From the IMG/VR virus record IMGVR_UViG_3300044648_000380, positions 1 through 40,265 of that record: a DNA stretch of 40,265 nt; one strand, given 5' to 3'. Below, in pieces: positions 2,947-30,160 of this stretch. Position 1 is the first letter of the stretch. The number at the start of each line of letters is the position of its first letter. Below the pieces are notes generated by a model. The model was not told where the DNA came from, made no database searches, and worked only from the letters and a program-made list of their open reading frames with translations. This stretch comes from a virus. The position numbers and the translations under genes are program-made.

Positions 2947-4175
2947 CCACGAACACCCCCGAGGCGCTGCTGCCGTGCCCCCTGGCGACGGAAGAACCGC
3001 ACCAAGTCGAACTTTGCAGCATCCCTTCGAACCACCCCGTTTTCAATGACGTGTACTACGTCTATTGTTCTTGCGGCCTGTGCGGGACTATAACCAACAC
3101 CGCCGAAGAAGCGGCAAAAAAGTGGAACACCCGCCGCCCCCTTCCCGCCGAGCGCGGGGACGCAAAGCCGACCAAGGCCGAGATTGACGCAGCTTTCGCA
3201 GAGTCCCTACCCGAAGCGATTGCCGAATCGAAGCGTAGGGCCGAGCGCGGGGACGCGGGGCGCAACGGCATCCAGAAAGCCGACCTCTCGACCATCGACC
3301 GCGAGGCTCAACCGAATCTATATCGCCTATGCGAGCGCATCAACGAGGAAATCGACAAAGGGCTGGTAGACGTTAAGGCGTTCCCGATGCCGGGCGCGAC
3401 CACCGAGGAAGCCGCCGCCTCGATTCTTGCGCTGATGGATGCGCCGCGCGTCTACGAAATCCCCGAAAGTTGGCCGTGCTCGACGGTAGCCGAGGCTATG
3501 GAAGCGGCCTTTTTGGTTGCCTCTAGAAGTGATGGGGAAGATACATGGCTCAACGCGAAAACCGTTCAGTCAGCGATGGAGCGCCTTGTCGCCTCCGACG
3601 TTGCGGCCTGGGTCGCCCAGGGGGAGGGGGTGGCGTGGCATTGCCCCGACTGCGAGTGCTTTTCATTCTCGGAAATCAAGAGGCCGCACGACTGGTTCCG
3701 CGAAGGCCGCTACCAAGAATGCAAAGGCATCCCCCTCGCCCTCGGTGTTCTCGCCTCCCCCGCTGCTACGCGGGCCACGGGGAGCGAGTGCGAAGCCGAA
3801 CTGACCCGCCTGCGTGAACTCGAAGCCCGCGTGAATTCCCCCGAGACGTTGGACTTCCTCGAAGGCGTCCGGCTCGAAGCGGTGCACCAGCAGGAGCGGT
3901 GGGGAACCGATGGCGACAAGGGGAAAACGCCCGAGGACTGGATGTGGCTGGTCGCCTTTCTTTCAACCAAGGCCACGCAGGCGGCGCGCTACAAGGATCG
4001 CCCGAAGTACCTGCACCATATCATCACGACCGCCGCCGTGCTCCTGAACTGGCACGCCTACGCCCTGGGCAACGATACCGGATTCAACCCCGGAGCACCG
4101 GACCCGGAGGTGAACCCCAAGCCGCGCGAAATGACGCATCCCCAGCACCCTTCAACCCCTACGGAGCAGCCGTGA
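2943..4175 (+). CDS. Lar-like zinc-binding N-terminus fused to a MazG-like C-terminal domain
   Basis: 410 residues; the ATG at 2943 follows a good ribosome site (AAAAGGAG). Residues 9-64 have the Lar restriction-alleviation outline: LLPCPL, a second Cys at 25, YCSCGLCG at 42-48 and a final T-EEAAKKWNTR. The usual CPFC is reduced to CPL, so one metal ligand may be lost or replaced. The middle 250 residues are acidic, low in complexity and unrecognised. Residues about 315-385 (EAVHQQERWG, EDWMWLVAFL, HHIITTAAVLLNWH) resemble phage MazG-like or dNTP-pyrophosphohydrolase-type helical domains. Lar proteins modulate type I restriction. A fusion of anti-restriction and nucleotide functions is inference. 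Confidence 0.6.
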   Translation: MTTNTPEALLPCPLATEEPHQVELCSIPSNHPVFNDVYYVYCSCGLCGTITNTAEEAAKKWNTRRPLPAERGDAKPTKAEIDAAFAESLPEAIAESKRRAERGDAGRNGIQKADLSTIDREAQPNLYRLCERINEEIDKGLVDVKAFPMPGATTEEAAASILALMDAPRVYEIPESWPCSTVAEAMEAAFLVASRSDGEDTWLNAKTVQSAMERLVASDVAAWVAQGEGVAWHCPDCECFSFSEIKRPHDWFREGRYQECKGIPLALGVLASPAATRATGSECEAELTRLRELEARVNSPETLDFLEGVRLEAVHQQERWGTDGDKGKTPEDWMWLVAFLSTKATQAARYKDRPKYLHHIITTAAVLLNWHAYALGNDTGFNPGAPDPEVNPKPREMTHPQHPSTPTEQP

Positions 4176-6625: not shown

Positions 6626-6819
6626 ACAAAAGGCAAAGGCGGAAAAGGGATCGCTCCGAATTTCGAGCATCGTTACCGAACCTTGATAGACTGTTGCGGC
6701 GTCTCGGATATTGCAGAATGAAGGGACGGGTCATGAGGTGGGTTCCCAAAGGACGGCCGGCAATATCGTGGGAAACCGAATTTAATCTCTTTCAGGCGTT
6801 GAACCGGAGTCCAGCATGA
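6622..6819 (+). CDS. Small basic hypothetical protein
   Basis: 65 residues from the ATG at 6622 in an ATGA overlap. The N-terminus is strongly basic (NKRQRRKRDRSEFR). The rest is a helix (LPNLDRLLRRLGY) followed by a short strand and a C-terminal helix. It may bind nucleic acid. It sits directly before the small HTH gene at 6816 with a second ATGA overlap, so the two are probably translated together. Confidence 0.5.
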   Translation: MNKRQRRKRDRSEFRASLPNLDRLLRRLGYCRMKGRVMRWVPKGRPAISWETEFNLFQALNRSPA

Positions 6820-7034
6820 ATAGCCCCATCGACAAGGCCTTCGGCCAACAGATGTTCGTGGCCAGGATGGAACGGAAGCCCCGGCCCCTGACCCAGCAAG
6901 GCTTACGCCGCCTGCTCGTCAAGGAATTCGGGGAATCTGCTACTTCCCTCAGAACTATCGAGCGAATCGAAGCGTTTGAAACCCCAGGCTCAAACCGATC
7001 CCGCTACCAGATTCGGAAGGTGCTCGGACTCTGA
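6816..7034 (+). CDS. Small HTH DNA-binding protein, paralogue of the protein at 11072
   Basis: 72 residues; ATGA overlap. Helices can be read at AFGQQMFVARMER, LTQQGLRRLLVKEF and SLRTIERIEAF, an XRE/Cro-like helix-turn-helix. It aligns along its length with the protein at 11072-11344: both have FG near the start, then LTQQGLRRLL against LSREQLRRRI, then TSLRTIERIE against PSVNAIRDLE, and a basic segment before a final K-L helix. It is the last gene before the late region. The non-coding DNA directly after it holds a palindrome and three CGGT repeats with a 10-bp period, which are likely targets of this protein or its paralogue. I infer a regulator of late transcription or of itself. Confidence 0.65.
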   Translation: MNSPIDKAFGQQMFVARMERKPRPLTQQGLRRLLVKEFGESATSLRTIERIEAFETPGSNRSRYQIRKVLGL

Positions 7035-7038
7035 CACA

Positions 7039-7054
7039 GGTTTCACGCGAAACC
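7039..7054. promoter_or_regulatory. Palindrome GGTTTC-N4-GAAACC
   Basis: A perfect 6-bp inverted repeat with a 4-base centre (ACGC), five bases after the stop of the HTH gene at 6816. It could be an operator half-site pair or a small hairpin; there is no T-run, so it is not a typical terminator. It abuts the three 10-bp repeats that start at 7057. Confidence 0.45.
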
Positions 7055-7056
7055 AA

Positions 7057-7084
7057 ATGTCGGTGAATGTCGGTATATGTCGGT
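7057..7084. repeat. Three ATGTCGGT repeats with exact 10-bp period
   Basis: ATGTCGGT occurs at 7057-7064, 7067-7074 and 7077-7084. The two-base spacers are GA and AT. A period of one helical turn places the three sites on the same face of DNA, as expected of an operator array or activator-binding site. The adjacent upstream gene encodes an HTH protein. A matching three-copy array (ACGGTAG) follows its paralogue at 11318-11344. Confidence 0.7.
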
Positions 7085-7265
7085 GAAATCTTCGCTCCCC
7101 AACTTGAATTCCCCCTAAATCTCTTTCCCTCTCCGCATTGTTTGCGGTATCGGTGCTTAAGGATTGGCCCCGAAGTTATTCGCCCGAGGATGTGGCGAAG
7201 GGAAGACGATATGGCGCAAGCCCTTTTTTTAGGCCCACACGGAAACCAGTTCAGTTTCCTCTAGT
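7085..7265 (+). promoter_or_regulatory. Non-coding region before the terminase genes
   Basis: About 180 bases separate the repeats from the small terminase start. There is a T7 run at 7224-7230 preceded only by a 3-bp GGC-GCAA-GCC stem, too weak to call a terminator. A 6-bp inverted repeat, GGAAAC at 7241-7246 and GTTTCC at 7254-7259, lies just before the ATG at 7266, where no Shine-Dalgarno sequence is visible. A late promoter is expected here, but I cannot pick -35 and -10 boxes with confidence. Short frames that cross this stretch have no protein-like features. Confidence 0.4.
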
Positions 7266-7538
7266 ATGGCCGCCAAAAAAGGACATGAGAAATGGGGCGG
7301 CCGCAAGAAAGGCACCCCCAACAAGGTTACGGCCATTGCCAAGGACGTGATTGCCCAAGTCGCGGCCGACCTCGGCGGCGCCGAACGCCTGCTCACCTGG
7401 TGCCGGCAGAACAAGTCGAACGAGGGGACGTTCTGGACGTACATCTTCCCCCGCCTCCTCCCGCTTCAGACCACGAACGAAAACGACAACCGCACGTTCA
7501 ACTTCATCTTCGCCCCCGCGAAGAAAAAGGAGGGGTGA
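7266..7538 (+). CDS. terS: Terminase small subunit (probable)
   Basis: 90 residues. The N-terminus, KWGGRKKGTPNKVTAI, matches the basic GGRKKGTPNK opening of short phage small-terminase-like proteins. A helix (DVIAQVAADLGGAERLLTW) and the aromatic FWTYIFPRLLPLQ follow. It directly precedes and overlaps the large terminase gene (TGATG). The protein is shorter than classical small subunits, so it may contain only the DNA-binding and oligomerisation core. Its role would be to recognise the packaging site and regulate the ATPase of the large subunit. No ribosome site is visible upstream. Confidence 0.72.
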   Translation: MAAKKGHEKWGGRKKGTPNKVTAIAKDVIAQVAADLGGAERLLTWCRQNKSNEGTFWTYIFPRLLPLQTTNENDNRTFNFIFAPAKKKEG

Positions 7539-8887
7539 TGTGGCGGTTTTTATTGGCGGGCCTGATGTCTAGCGCAAACGCCGAGGTAGTGACCAAGGAA
7601 ATCCAGCTCCTCCCGGCGCAAATCGAGATGCTCGAGTCGGAGGCCTTTTATATCGCCCTGGTGGGCGGGTACGGCTCCGGCAAAACCCAGGCCTGCGGGT
7701 GGAAGGGGGTCATGCAGACACGGGTCGATCCCGGGATCCTGCACGCCATCCTTTCCCCATCATTCCCGACCGCGAAGCTGACCGTCGTTCCGGCCATCTT
7801 CGAGGTGCTCGAGGACTACTTGGGCATGAAGGAGGGGAAACGGGGGGACTTCACCTATAACCGCGTCGATCACATGTTCCGGATCAGGGCCTGGGGAGGG
7901 CAGCTTGTGATCCTGTCCGCGGAGAATTCAAACAAGGGCCCGAACCTTGGAAGCTGCGGCCTGGACGAACCCGGCCTACAGCCTTTCTCCTCCCTGAAAC
8001 AGGCCATTGCCCGCGTCCGCCACCCTAAAGCCACGCGCCCCTGTATCTACCTGACTGGAACCCCGGAGGACATCGAGTGGTTTCCGGACTTCGTTGAAGG
8101 AGCAATCAAGCCCGAGGGTCTTCACGACATCCGGGCCAAGACGCGCGACAACATCTTCCTCCCCGAGCAGTACTTCAAAAACCTTGAGGCCAGCTACAGC
8201 GCCGAGGAGCTGCTTGCCTACATGGATGGGCAGTTCGTCGACCTTAGCGGGGCTAGGGCCTACCACGCCTTCACGAACAAGAACCTGATTCGGCCGGACG
8301 AGTTCGACCCCGACCCCGATCTTCCGTTGATCCTTGGCTTTGATTACAACTGGTACCCGAACACGGCGATCGTCGCCCAAGAGGTTCCGGACTGGGTGCA
8401 CGAAGGAGGCCGCATCGGTCCCGCGTTCATCGTTTTCGACGAGTTCTGGATCCGGGGAAGCACGGAAGAGAAGTGCCGCCAGACCCTCGAAAAGTACGGC
8501 GCGAAATACAAATACCGCATTTACCAGGATGCGACCGGGGATAAAAACACCTCCGTCGCCGTGTCCGATTTGAACCAGGTCCGGAACGCCTTCCGTGAGG
8601 TTGACCACAAGGTGATCTACCGGCCCGCCAACCCAAGGCGCCTGGACCGCATGAACGCGGTGAACGGCCGCTTCTGCAACGGAAACGGCGAGCGGTTCAT
8701 CTACATCTCAACGAATTGCCCCCATTTGATCGCTGATATGCGCAAGTCCCGGCGCGACGAATACCTGTCGGGAAAATACACCGAGGACGAGCGCGGCCAT
8801 GCCGGCGACTGCCTTGGCTACCCCATTGAATACCGCTACCCCATCAGGCGGGACACGAAGCACTCCAACCGGAGAATTATACCGTGA
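7538..8887 (+). CDS. terL: Terminase large subunit
   Basis: 449 residues from the ATG overlapping the terS stop; a second in-frame ATG at 7565 is possible. Walker A is GGYGSGKT at residues 43-50 and Walker B is CGLDEPG with Asp143-Glu144. The coupling motif TGTPED is near 173. The RNase H-like nuclease part begins with GFDYNWYPNT (Asp269), continues with a YQDATGD segment, and ends with HAGDCLGYPIEY near the C-terminus, which provides the last acidic residue. Length and order are those of phage packaging motors. It cuts concatemers and pumps DNA into the procapsid through the portal encoded next. No LAGLIDADG or HNH insertion. Confidence 0.95.
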   Translation: MWRFLLAGLMSSANAEVVTKEIQLLPAQIEMLESEAFYIALVGGYGSGKTQACGWKGVMQTRVDPGILHAILSPSFPTAKLTVVPAIFEVLEDYLGMKEGKRGDFTYNRVDHMFRIRAWGGQLVILSAENSNKGPNLGSCGLDEPGLQPFSSLKQAIARVRHPKATRPCIYLTGTPEDIEWFPDFVEGAIKPEGLHDIRAKTRDNIFLPEQYFKNLEASYSAEELLAYMDGQFVDLSGARAYHAFTNKNLIRPDEFDPDPDLPLILGFDYNWYPNTAIVAQEVPDWVHEGGRIGPAFIVFDEFWIRGSTEEKCRQTLEKYGAKYKYRIYQDATGDKNTSVAVSDLNQVRNAFREVDHKVIYRPANPRRLDRMNAVNGRFCNGNGERFIYISTNCPHLIADMRKSRRDEYLSGKYTEDERGHAGDCLGYPIEYRYPIRRDTKHSNRRIIP

Positions 8888-10329
8888 GAATTTCCAAGCG
8901 CCACCCCGAGATCACCGCCGTGCTTCCCAAATGGGAGCGGGTCCGCGTTCTCTCCGAGGAGGATGAGGCCAAATACGCCGACCCTCTGTATTTCATCAAG
9001 CTGCCGAACGAGAGCGCCACCGCATACGACGAGCGTAAGCCCGCCTATCTCTCGGGCTTCGTGAACATCGCCGGATCCCTGCTCCGGATAAAAGGGGACA
9101 CGATTTTCCAGAAGGATGTGAAGCGGGAAAAACTCGGGTCGATGCAGAAAGCCTTCCTGGACAAGGCGGACGGCTCCCGCCAGCGGTTCCCCGAGGTCAT
9201 GCAGAACGAAGTTGCCCCTTCCCTTGCCGGGTATGGTACGGTTTTTGCCGTGATGGACAAGCCTGCGGGAATCGCCAATAACCGGGCTCAGGAAGAAACA
9301 TCCGGAATCCCCTACATCACCGTCCTTTCCCCGTTCCAGGTTGTGGATTTTGAATGGGATAAGGACGGCGAGCTCAAGTGGTTCCAGTACCTGACTTGCG
9401 AGGAGGAACCCCGGGTGCCCCCCGAAGATGGGAAGCCTTCGATCACCAAGAACACAGAAACGCTCGTCACCTGGACCCGCGAGAATTACATCAAAAAAAC
9501 GGGAGCGAAGCCGGCCGACAGCAAACCCAACCCTTTCGGGTTCGTGCCAGTGATCATTCAGGCCCAGTTTGTGGACCCGAACAAGACCATCGGGAAATCC
9601 AGCTTCTTCGCCACCAGCCGCTACATCTTCTCGGCCAATAACCTCGGGTGCGCGTCGAATTTCGAGGTTTACAAGAACTCCTCCGCCTTGCTCGCGATGG
9701 ATGTTCAGGACCTGGACGAATCGGACGGACAACGGTCGGAAGTAAACCCCGACACGAACCAGAAACGGGTCACGAAGGAGCGGGACGAGATCAAGGGAAT
9801 CCTGACCTTCCAGAGGACCCCCGCCACCTACATCGAAAGACCCTCGGGACTGATCGAGTCCGCGGCGAAGCGGGCGAAAGACTACTTCGACCTGGCTCTC
9901 GACAACGAGAAATCCGCCTTGTCGGTTACTACCGCAGAAATGCCAGCCTCCGGCGTGTCCAAGGCCTACGATTTCACCTCGATCAACGGGGTGCTTTCGG
10001 CCTTCTCCCGCGCCCTGCAAAGGGTAGAGGAGCAGGCCTTCCGGATGGTGGGCCGAATGTCCAGGCAGGAAAACCAGTCCTTCGTGATCGCCTACCCGCA
10101 GGAGTTCGACGTTCGAACCCTGAACGAGAAGATCGAATTCGTGAAAGGCCTGATCGACGCCAAGTTCCCGAGCGTCCTCGGGATGCGCGAGGCCTATAAA
10201 TCCCTGACCCCGGAAATCACCGAGAACGTCTCGGAGCAGGGGAAGATCAACGATGAAATCGACAAGTACGAGATCCCGCAAGAAGAACCCACAAACCCAA
10301 AGGACCCCTCGAAAGAGGGTAAGGAGTAA
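8884..10329 (+). CDS. Portal protein
   Basis: 481 residues from a GTG in a GTGA overlap with terL. Position right after terL, length, and the overall pattern support a portal: an N-terminal region with YLSGFVNIAGSLL, a mixed wing domain (IPYITVLSPFQVVDFEW), a long helical segment with the SKAYDFTSINGVL and FSRALQRVEEQAF helices, and an acidic, low-complexity tail (PQEEPTNPKDPSKEGKE). Portals form the dodecameric ring at one capsid vertex, bind terminase, and later bind the connector proteins. The closest type appears to be the short DUF4055-like portals, but that subfamily label is tentative. Confidence 0.88.
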   Translation: MRISKRHPEITAVLPKWERVRVLSEEDEAKYADPLYFIKLPNESATAYDERKPAYLSGFVNIAGSLLRIKGDTIFQKDVKREKLGSMQKAFLDKADGSRQRFPEVMQNEVAPSLAGYGTVFAVMDKPAGIANNRAQEETSGIPYITVLSPFQVVDFEWDKDGELKWFQYLTCEEEPRVPPEDGKPSITKNTETLVTWTRENYIKKTGAKPADSKPNPFGFVPVIIQAQFVDPNKTIGKSSFFATSRYIFSANNLGCASNFEVYKNSSALLAMDVQDLDESDGQRSEVNPDTNQKRVTKERDEIKGILTFQRTPATYIERPSGLIESAAKRAKDYFDLALDNEKSALSVTTAEMPASGVSKAYDFTSINGVLSAFSRALQRVEEQAFRMVGRMSRQENQSFVIAYPQEFDVRTLNEKIEFVKGLIDAKFPSVLGMREAYKSLTPEITENVSEQGKINDEIDKYEIPQEEPTNPKDPSKEGKE

Positions 10330-10331
10330 TC

Positions 10332-11072
10332 ATGGAATTCACCGAAATCGAAACCGCCCTGGCGGACAAACCCGAAGCCCTGGCATTCGTAAAGGGTCTG
10401 CACGAAAAGGCCGGCAAGCTCACGCCCGAGCTCGAGGCGGACATTGGGAAACTCAGCGAGTACAAGGGCCATTCCGAGGCCTACGCCAAACTGCTCAAGG
10501 AAACGGGCGCCAAGGATGTCGATGGACTCCTGAAGGACTTCGGAAACCTGAAAACCACCAACGCCGACCTGGTGAGCCAGCGGGAAAAGTGGAAAGCGGG
10601 GGGCAAAAACACGGATTCCCCCGAATACCGCGCCTTGCAGGAACAGATCGAGGCCGGCCAGAAGGCGCTCAAGGAAATCACCGATAAGATGACGGCCGCC
10701 GAGCAGAAAGCTGCTGACGCGGCCGTGAACGAGCGCAAAACCGCGCTGAAGTCCTCCATCATCGCGGCGGCCGGCAAGGCCAAGGCCACCGAGCCAGAGG
10801 ACATTCACATCCTGCTCGAGGCCCGCGGTCTTATCGGACACAAGGAGGACGGAACCCCTTTCTTCTACAAGCAGAACGAGAAGAAAGAAAACGTCGCTGT
10901 GGGCAGCGCCGATGATGTCGTGGCCTGGCTGGCCGAAACCAGGAAGGACCTTTTCACCGGCAGCGGCATCGGCGGGACTGGAGGCAAGCACAGAGGCGGC
11001 GCCCCCGGTACCGACGACCTGACCCCCAAGAGCGCAAAGGCCAACTTCCTGGCCTCCCGGGGCGTGGGGTAA
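10332..11072 (+). CDS. Capsid scaffolding protein
   Basis: 246 residues. It is strongly helical and charged with several heptad-rich segments (residues 45-70 and 95-140), an Ala/Lys-rich coiled coil, and a Gly-rich loop before a small basic C-terminal tail (PKSAKANFLASRGVG), the usual capsid-binding end of scaffolds. It lies between the portal and capsid genes. No protease gene is seen, so the scaffold may be removed by a host protease or leave intact. Its stop shares one base with the start of the HTH gene at 11072. Confidence 0.85.
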   Translation: MEFTEIETALADKPEALAFVKGLHEKAGKLTPELEADIGKLSEYKGHSEAYAKLLKETGAKDVDGLLKDFGNLKTTNADLVSQREKWKAGGKNTDSPEYRALQEQIEAGQKALKEITDKMTAAEQKAADAAVNERKTALKSSIIAAAGKAKATEPEDIHILLEARGLIGHKEDGTPFFYKQNEKKENVAVGSADDVVAWLAETRKDLFTGSGIGGTGGKHRGGAPGTDDLTPKSAKANFLASRGVG

Positions 11073-11344
11073 TGTTCGGCAAAGTCTTAAAGCAGGAGAG
11101 GGAAAAGGCGGGGCTGTCGCGCGAGCAGCTCCGCCGCCGGATATTGCGGCATTACGAAACAGCGCCTTCCGTGAATGCGATTCGGGATCTCGAGAACGGC
11201 TCCAATATTGGCCCCCAAAACCGCAACCTCGAGAAGCTCCTTCACGTCCTTTCGGGTCTACGGGACGCCATGAACAAAGACCGGGAAGCGCCCGCGATAG
11301 AGGCGACCGAAGGGCTTACGGTAGGTCACGGTAGTTTACGGTAG
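11072..11344 (+). CDS. XRE-like HTH protein inserted between scaffold and capsid genes
   Basis: 90 residues. Residues 1-60 form an XRE-type helix-turn-helix: MFGKVLKQEREKAGLSREQLRRRI, then SVNAIRDLENG, then a helix LEKLLHVLSGLRDAM. It is clearly related to the 72-residue protein at 6816. A regulator in the middle of a head operon is unusual. The last codons run into three ACGGTAG repeats with a 10-bp period (11318-11344), so the protein's own 3' end carries its probable operator. A promoter-like sequence and the major capsid gene follow. I infer that it controls capsid-gene expression; activator or repressor is undecided. Confidence 0.75.
   Translation: MFGKVLKQEREKAGLSREQLRRRILRHYETAPSVNAIRDLENGSNIGPQNRNLEKLLHVLSGLRDAMNKDREAPAIEATEGLTVGHGSLR
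11318..11344. repeat. Three ACGGTAG repeats with exact 10-bp period
   Basis: ACGGTAG occurs at 11318-11324, 11328-11334 and 11338-11344; spacers are GTC and TTT. The last repeat contains the TAG stop of the HTH gene. They lie about 30 bases upstream of a promoter-like -35 (11373). The array parallels the ATGTCGGT array at 7057-7084 in copy number, period and CGGT core. Confidence 0.7.
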
Positions 11345-11372
11345 TCAACTATTTGCATTTCGCTGATTCTTG

Positions 11373-11400
11373 TTGAAAGTGCATACTCCGCGGCCATAGT
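11373..11400 (+). promoter_or_regulatory. Candidate promoter for the major capsid gene
   Basis: TTGAAA at 11373-11378 (5 of 6 to consensus) is followed after 16 bases by CATAGT at 11395-11400 (4 of 6). It lies in the 99-base gap between the HTH gene and the capsid gene, downstream of the three ACGGTAG repeats. The capsid gene has its own ribosome site (GCGAGGA) upstream of 11444. The placement would let capsid protein be made in excess over portal and scaffold. Confidence 0.5.
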
Positions 11401-11443: not shown

Positions 11444-12373
11444 ATGGCCGAAGTTACCCTCATCGAGCAAAGTAAGCTGATCACGAACCCGCAGGCGAAC
11501 GAGGTTGCCAACGTGTTCGCCACTTCCTTCCCCGCGCTGTCCCTGATCCCCTTCGAGACGATCAGCGGCTACCACAAGCCGATCACCCTGGTGGACACCC
11601 TGCCCACCGTCAACCCCCGCGATTTCGGGGTGGACTTCGTGTCCTCGTTCGGCAGCTCCTCGACCTACAATGTCCCCTGGAAGAACTACGGCGGCAAGCT
11701 CGAGGTGGACAAAGCGCTTCGGAAGGGCAACCCCGCCGGGGCGGCCATGCAGGAGCTCATGCAGATCCAGGCCATCGCCAAGCAGATGACCCAGGACATG
11801 TTCCAGGGGGCGGGCGGCACTTCGATGACCGGCATTTCGTCCTTCCTCACGACCCTTTTCCCCGGCCAGGTGGTCAACGCGGGAACCACCGCTTCCGGCG
11901 ACCTCCTGACTATGGCCCTCATGGATTCGGCCTTCAATCTGATCACGGCCGACGAGAACACGGCCATTTTCTGCTCGCAAAAGGTCCGCGATCGCCTGAC
12001 CTACCTCGCCCGCACCAACGCCGCCGGCCAGCAGAACATCCAGTACATCGTGGACCAGTTCGGCACCAAGGTGATATCCTACAACCAGGTCCCGATCTAC
12101 TGCATGATCGACGACTACACCGGGGCGGACATTCTTTCCGTCGCGGAAATCGACGGCGCGGCCACGAACAGCGACACCTCGTCCCTGTACATCGTGAAAT
12201 TCGCCTCGGACGCGGTGAAGGGCTTCTCGCCCTCCAGCCCGACACTGGACATCGAAACCGCCAACCCCGGCACTCATGCCGCGGTGACGCGCCTCGAGGC
12301 CAATGTGGGCATCACGCTGATGCAGCCGCGCAGCGCCGTCCGCATCCGGTACATCAAGCAGGCGGTGTCGTAA
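11444..12373 (+). CDS. Major capsid protein (HK97-fold, probable)
   Basis: 309 residues. It follows the scaffold module and shows the expected features: a helical N-terminus (EQSKLITNPQANEVANVFA), an E-loop-like region, a helix with QELMQIQAIAKQMTQDMF, then a Gly-rich loop, a P-domain helix (MALMDSAFNLI), and late strands (IQYIVDQFGTKVISYNQVPIYCMID, IRYIKQAVS). It has no N-terminal delta domain, consistent with a separate scaffold. The protein is codon-biased toward GC-ending codons, typical of a highly expressed gene. HK97 fold is inferred from context and outline. Confidence 0.85.
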   Translation: MAEVTLIEQSKLITNPQANEVANVFATSFPALSLIPFETISGYHKPITLVDTLPTVNPRDFGVDFVSSFGSSSTYNVPWKNYGGKLEVDKALRKGNPAGAAMQELMQIQAIAKQMTQDMFQGAGGTSMTGISSFLTTLFPGQVVNAGTTASGDLLTMALMDSAFNLITADENTAIFCSQKVRDRLTYLARTNAAGQQNIQYIVDQFGTKVISYNQVPIYCMIDDYTGADILSVAEIDGAATNSDTSSLYIVKFASDAVKGFSPSSPTLDIETANPGTHAAVTRLEANVGITLMQPRSAVRIRYIKQAVS

Positions 12374-29308: not shown

Positions 29309-30043
29309 CTAAATCTTCGGTTCCTTCAGAACCTCCGTCACCGCAAGCGCCGGCGACGTGATCCCCTTGAGAAGTGAATATGCCGCATCCGGCGTCAGGT
29401 CAGGATCCAGCCAAGACTCCGCGGCCGCTTCCGTCAGGACGATGGGTGTTCGTTCGTGGTAGATCCCCTGAAGGACCGGTATCTCGTCCGAGGGGCCGGT
29501 TATAACCGTGCAGCTATCCAGGCGATCCCCCGAGGGCGAAGTCCAGGTGTCGTACAGGCCTGCGAGGAAATGCGGCTCGGGGTTCAGGAGTTGCACCTCG
29601 AATTCCCTGCCAGTGAATTCCTTCGGGGCACCGTCCATGTTCGGCCGCTCGCGCCAGGCCTCCACCGGCATGACGCACCGCTGCCCTTTCTTCCAGGCGG
29701 GCTTGAACGAGTAGGTCGTGGGAACTGTCTCGAGGCGGGCGTTGTAGGTGTCGAACCCCCACCGTTTTCCGGTCTCCGGGTTGATCGCCTTGGAGGCTTT
29801 TTTCTTCTTCACCTCCTCAAGCGAGAGATGGTAACGCCTCAAGTAATCGGCGGGGATCAGGTCCCACCGCATCGGCTTCACCTGGTAGCCGGCCGTGATC
29901 ACTTCGACGTTCGCCTTCGGGTAGTAGAAGCCGTTGGGGGATTCCTTGATGAGCCCTTCACGAAGAAGGCGCCGGACCTCGGCGTCGGTTTTCATGGAAA
30001 GCTTACCGGAAGGGAGGCGGACGGGCTTGTAGGCGTAGCACAT
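29309..30043 (-). CDS. SRAP-domain protein (YedK/HMCES-like abasic-site DNA-protein crosslinker)
   Basis: 244 residues from the start that gives MCYAYKP, since SRAP proteins need Cys2 exposed after Met removal; a longer frame upstream would bury it and is rejected. The active-site set is present: Cys2, Asn101 and Arg103 in YNARLET, Glu128 in VMPVEAWRE, and His196 in IYHERTPIVL. The insertion VKKKKASKAINPETG is near residue 79-92. SRAP proteins bind ssDNA at abasic sites and form a thiazolidine crosslink that shields the site. It is transcribed leftward, against the late genes, and so may be expressed in the lysogen. No strong ribosome site was seen. Confidence 0.9.
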   Translation of the reverse strand: MCYAYKPVRLPSGKLSMKTDAEVRRLLREGLIKESPNGFYYPKANVEVITAGYQVKPMRWDLIPADYLRRYHLSLEEVKKKKASKAINPETGKRWGFDTYNARLETVPTTYSFKPAWKKGQRCVMPVEAWRERPNMDGAPKEFTGREFEVQLLNPEPHFLAGLYDTWTSPSGDRLDSCTVITGPSDEIPVLQGIYHERTPIVLTEAAAESWLDPDLTPDAAYSLLKGITSPALAVTEVLKEPKI

Positions 30044-30160
30044 GAGGGGAAAATACGCATCATTTAGGCCCGCGCCGAGTGCTAAGGGCTGAAAATCGGT
30101 GCAAATTCCTGGGTTTGTGCAGCAAGAATTTCGCACACGGTCCGGGGTAGATTGCTCCCA

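Follow-up and report, generated by a model that had tools for sequence, protein, structure and literature searches.

What do two small HTH genes, each accompanied by a short array of 10-bp repeats, do within the structural region of a tailed phage? The stretch of DNA analysed here (the window) is the whole of IMG/VR record IMGVR_UViG_3300044648_000380, 40,265 bp, from a tailed phage with a tyrosine integrase gene. Its genes run in the order NinG, HNH and RNase H genes, HTH-A, putative small terminase, large terminase, portal, scaffold, HTH-B, major capsid protein, adaptor, tape measure, and endolysin (Table 1). The feature is real, conserved, and well placed, and most likely represents late-promoter activation of a kind known from phages, here in two copies and with small HTH proteins; we consider it probable that the locus holds two copies of a late-gene activation cassette, in each of which a small HTH protein activates the next late operon.

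Querying IMG/VR with terminase, scaffold, capsid, and HTH-B yields only three further close members of this family, designated L002, L004, and L005. The closest is L002, a 38-kb contig whose structural proteins are around 68% identical to those of the window. No close relative was found among sequenced phages, in which TerL is at most around 32% identical and HTH-B has no match, and no close prophage was found in the GTDB genomes searched. The window also carries a gene for an SRAP (HMCES-like) SOS-response peptidase (29309–30136, minus strand; Pfam E = 5e-25); in an attempt at host assignment, matches to this protein were all below 60% and scattered over mixed phyla. In L004 (11800–12210), the match to the capsid gene ends after around 64 codons, and the DNA beyond looks like a self-splicing intron; the genes next downstream match on the opposite strand.

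Table 1. Features of the packaging and capsid region of the window.
Feature	Position	Strand	Remarks
HTH-A, putative small HTH regulator	6816–7034	+	72 aa; start overlaps stop of preceding ORF
Array 1	7055–7084	+	AAATGTCGGT GAATGTCGGT ATATGTCGGT; period 10; CGG 75/65/55 bp before core
Conserved promoter-like core CGCATTGTTT	7134–7143	+	Putative -10 CATTGT at 7136; 51 bp downstream of array 1
Packaging-operon leader	7146–7205	+	Two putative hairpins with AAGGA/GAGGA loops; common to L002 and L005
Putative small terminase	7266–7538	+	Assigned by position; 90 aa; PHROG of unknown function
Terminase large subunit	7538–8887	+	
Portal protein	8884–10329	+	
Scaffolding protein	10332–11072	+	Stop overlaps HTH-B start (TAATG)
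HTH-B, Xre/434-repressor-like small HTH	11072–11344	+	90 aa; kept in L002 (58%) and L005 (52%)
Array 2	11316–11345	+	TTACGGTAGG TCACGGTAGT TTACGGTAGT; period 10; CGG 76/66/56 bp before core
Putative capsid promoter (TTGAAA, 16 bp, CATAGT)	11373–11400	+	CCATAGTGTT identical in L002; 49–50 bp 3′ of array
Major capsid protein	11444–12373	+	

The repeats lie exactly where the original prediction had placed them, with ATGTCGGT at 7057, 7067, and 7077 and ACGGTAG at 11318, 11328, and 11338, giving three copies each at a period of exactly 10 bp, or one helical turn. The whole 40-kb window was scanned for exact triple 6- to 8-mers with a period of up to 30; exact triple 7-mers with a period of 8–30 are found solely at arrays 1 and 2, and dinucleotide shuffles of the whole window yield such a triple at period 10 only 0.005 times on average. 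When the lag-10 threshold is relaxed, two regions are observed, compared with 0.19 in dinucleotide-shuffled windows. Within the 120 bp upstream of each promoter-like core, the observed lag-10 score is reached by none of 2,000 shuffles, and 10 is the only lag between 7 and 15 that stands out. A search of Rfam gives no match. Each array had been predicted to lie directly after its regulator gene, which holds for array 1; array 2, however, overlaps the last codons of HTH-B, the ORF of which ends at 11344.

The two regulators had been proposed to be paralogues, and their HTH cores do align: 30% of positions are identical over 63 residues (E = 3e-4 for the pair), which makes a common origin plausible. 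An ORF at the place of HTH-A in L002 is similar (31% identity). HTH-B gives weak profile matches to HTH_31 and HTH_3 (for HTH_31, E = 2e-4, below the curated cutoff). Its AlphaFold model, based on a three-sequence alignment (pLDDT 72), resembles Xre domains, including that of the 434 repressor (TM 0.72 by target length), albeit with a best Foldseek E of 0.08; the predicted structure is all helical and has no wing. HTH-A has no family match in Pfam or NCBIfam and no fold match either, and thus its designation as an HTH protein rests on likeness to HTH-B and on position. Ltr, RinA, and ArpU profiles in Pfam, PHROGs, and NCBIfam match neither HTH-A nor HTH-B.

HTH-A begins on the stop of the preceding ORF and HTH-B on that of the scaffold gene; hence, each regulator closes a series of translationally linked genes, with an array at its end. 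In L007, a phage DNA methyltransferase ORF (7653–9683) contains an HTH stretch (7990–8230) with 33% identity to HTH-B. L007 was rejected as an HTH-B relative with a cassette, the stretch belonging to the methyltransferase, and this placement suggests that an HTH of the HTH-B type may also serve as an inserted domain.

The arrays had been predicted to precede the packaging and capsid genes, and each does so with constant spacing to a conserved promoter-like core. The terS core is identical in L002 and lies at an equal distance from the array there. Between array end and core, the gap is 51 and 51 bp for CATTGT (terS) and 49 and 50 bp for CATAGT (capsid) in the window and L002. In L005, a -10-like TATGCT lies around 40 bp past the capsid array, approximately one turn closer, and the core is less certain. 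If CATTGT and CATAGT are taken as -10 boxes, the arrays would reach from about -92 to -63 and offer one contact per turn. Class I activators bind at such upstream positions, and the array geometry fits a putative activator operator with one contact per helical turn.

Summed over the arrays, lag 10 matches 83% of bases, compared with 16%–28% at the other lags tested (5–15). Period, copy number, and distance to the core are conserved across arrays, whereas the unit sequences are unrelated: among the five arrays, their likeness is no greater than that of permuted decamers, even beside HTH-B proteins that share the same recognition helix. For HTH-B, this putative helix reads PSVNAIRDLEN in both the window and L002; in L005, it carries the substitutions Ser→Thr, Asn→Asp, and Asp→Arg, and the array there has CACAG/CACAC, not CGG. 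Of all trinucleotides, only CGG, or CCG on the same strand, is repeated at one helical phase in all four promoter-anchored arrays, with the phase test being post hoc and decamer-permuted controls yielding any such triplet in 0.4%. In L002, the triplets lie 77 and 57 bp before the core at terS, where just two of the three copies contain CCG, and 75, 65, and 55 bp before it at the capsid gene. A longer motif common to the arrays was rejected, with nothing shared beyond CGG/CCG. With CGG as the contact triplet, drift of the units would be compatible with an HTH-B helix that is unchanged between the window and L002.

L002 carries triple 10-bp arrays at both orthologous places, of the TTCGCCGTAA type before terS and of the AAAGCGGAA type before the capsid gene, and the rest of its contig holds no further array at the same threshold. 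In L005, three copies of AGTCACA spaced 10 bp apart directly follow HTH-B and precede the capsid gene; before its terS, where the contig begins, there is a divergent Xre-like ORF but no forward HTH gene and no array. In L004, the scaffold and capsid genes have no HTH gene between them, and the 10-bp periodicity at its capsid place is degenerate and not significant (P = 0.17); before terS there is no room, and a methyltransferase gene overlaps the small terminase gene. Comparison of downstream DNA in relatives had been set in advance as a test that could refute the prediction; those relatives that keep the HTH gene retain the array, and L004 has neither. Among six more distant capsid/terminase relatives, none shows a comparable array, and none has an annotated HTH gene in the scaffold–capsid interval. 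Together with the fixed distance between array and core, the co-occurrence of HTH gene and array in the close family supports the predicted duplication of a regulator–operator cassette.

Four other explanations of the arrays were weighed; from most to least likely, they are a different reader, repression, an effect of DNA shape, and a site used in packaging. In the first, the arrays are activator sites of both late promoters but are read by a host factor or another phage regulator, with the HTH genes as bystanders. Their position and phase would suit any class I activator, and the units vary even between phages that share the HTH-B recognition helix. This explanation is nevertheless unlikely: HTH gene and array are jointly present or absent at all eight loci (Fisher P = 0.018, ignoring relatedness), or at seven of seven without the truncated L005 terS locus (P = 0.048), and in four of the five cases the array shares bases with the HTH gene or comes immediately after it. 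These P values are optimistic because the phages are related, the sample being four family members (the window, L002, L004, and L005) and thus small and phylogenetically dependent.

The HTH proteins could also be repressors or timers that bind the arrays and thereby postpone or restrain expression of the late operon that follows, in the manner of autoregulated Xre repressors. Most known small Xre proteins are repressors, and the nearest profiles to the proteins here are of antitoxin or repressor types. The arrays, however, lie around 50 bp upstream of the core and hence beyond the zone in which a repressor blocks polymerase; moreover, the sites are direct repeats rather than palindromes, and the -35 box is poor or absent (none is evident in the terS promoter region), as is typical of activated promoters. 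We accordingly give repression only a small chance.

The conservation of period, copy number, and position, but not of sequence, is also what would be expected if phased 10-bp repeats served to bend the upstream DNA, leaving the exact sequence free. Curvature as the conserved property was rejected: in a wedge-model estimate, the arrays show no excess over permuted tandem decamers. The constant CGG phase likewise argues against DNA shape, which is very improbable as an explanation. Least credible of all is the proposal that the arrays are packaging (pac/cos-like) or other terminase recognition sites, not involved in transcription control. Array 1 does lie just ahead of the terminase genes, but a like array of other sequence precedes the capsid gene at an equal distance from its promoter-like core.

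The packaging-operon leader has putative tandem-hairpin counterparts at 3880–3940 in L002 and 300–365 in L005, with AAGGAC/AGGGAC loops and differing stems, and the loops resemble CsrA/RsmA (ANGGA) sites; taken alone, the window leader folds no better than shuffles. The conserved leader starts a 17-codon ORF (ATG at 7211; 7211–7264 in the window) ahead of the putative terS. Because the 90-aa window protein behind this conserved leader looks unlike its 176-aa counterpart in L002, the comparison suggests that terS may have been swapped behind a retained leader.

Activation by two cassettes, the reading favoured here, could operate as follows. A short single-domain HTH protein would be encoded by the last gene of one operon, with its operator just downstream, consisting of three contact triplets (CGG, on either strand) one helical turn apart and on the same face of the DNA. 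HTH proteins sitting side by side on this operator would recruit RNA polymerase to a promoter whose -35 box is poor or missing. Produced along with the operon before it, HTH-A would switch on the operon of terminase, portal, scaffold, and HTH-B; HTH-B would then switch on the capsid and tail genes. Since HTH-B lies within the operon that HTH-A would drive, late expression would take the form of a two-step relay. Gene order and overlaps, the arrays, their conserved period, copy number, and distance, the co-occurrence of HTH gene and array, and the common CGG phase are observed; we infer binding, activation as opposed to repression, the pairing of HTH protein with array, and the relay and its timing. 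The complete relay—paralogous Xre-type activators binding three CGG contacts and firing the next promoter, with prohead and packaging proteins preceding capsid and tail—is proposed tentatively, at somewhat less than even weight. If true, expression of packaging and scaffold proteins would be separated from that of capsid and tail by two small dedicated activators inside the structural region. The locus would also provide a compact example in which a 434-like domain recognises direct repeats arranged head to tail at one-turn spacing, and the combination of fast unit-sequence drift with fixed geometry would make it a usable test of operator and reader co-change.

By predicted fold and weak profile matches, HTH-B resembles the Xre family (434 repressor DNA-binding domain, HipB, SinR). 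Typical members of this family dimerise on palindromes, whereas the site here is a direct repeat and HTH-B is short. As in the RinA/Ltr group, each regulator gene lies just upstream of a predicted late promoter, HTH-A before the packaging operon and HTH-B before the capsid gene.

The single domain and the direct repeats one turn apart are also reminiscent of BldC from Streptomyces, a 68-residue single domain that binds head-to-tail direct repeats with one contact tract per helical turn and a variable copy number (PMC5859096). BldC, however, has a winged HTH of the MerR-like type and regulates development in the host, while HTH-B is predicted to be Xre/434-like and to lack a wing.

The original prediction held that no phage late-gene control of this form had been described, a claim that fails because Φ13 Ltr and TP901-1 Alt both act through direct repeats that precede a late promoter. 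In Staphylococcus phage Φ13, Ltr activates its late promoter via 18-bp direct repeats at the 3′ end of the ltr gene; three such repeats and a partial one occupy -107 to -42, and their deletion abolishes promoter activity (PMC13123087). Here, the arrays (7055–7084 and 11316–11345) are similarly direct repeats upstream of putative late promoters, 49–51 bp before the core. Ltr proteins are around 130 aa, and one such promoter (P23) is described for Φ13 (PMC13123087), whereas the proteins here are 67–90 aa, the repeats 10 bp, and the cassettes two per late region. Alt of Lactococcus phage TP901-1 is described as binding four imperfect direct repeats at -76 to -32 of one late promoter (PMC13123087); the likeness is in the direct repeats upstream of a late promoter, with no sequence relation seen between Alt and the proteins here. 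Late-gene control via direct repeats is therefore already known from Ltr and Alt, and what differs here is the protein family and the number of cassettes: the described Ltr and Alt phages have a single late switch, compared with two cassettes in the window.
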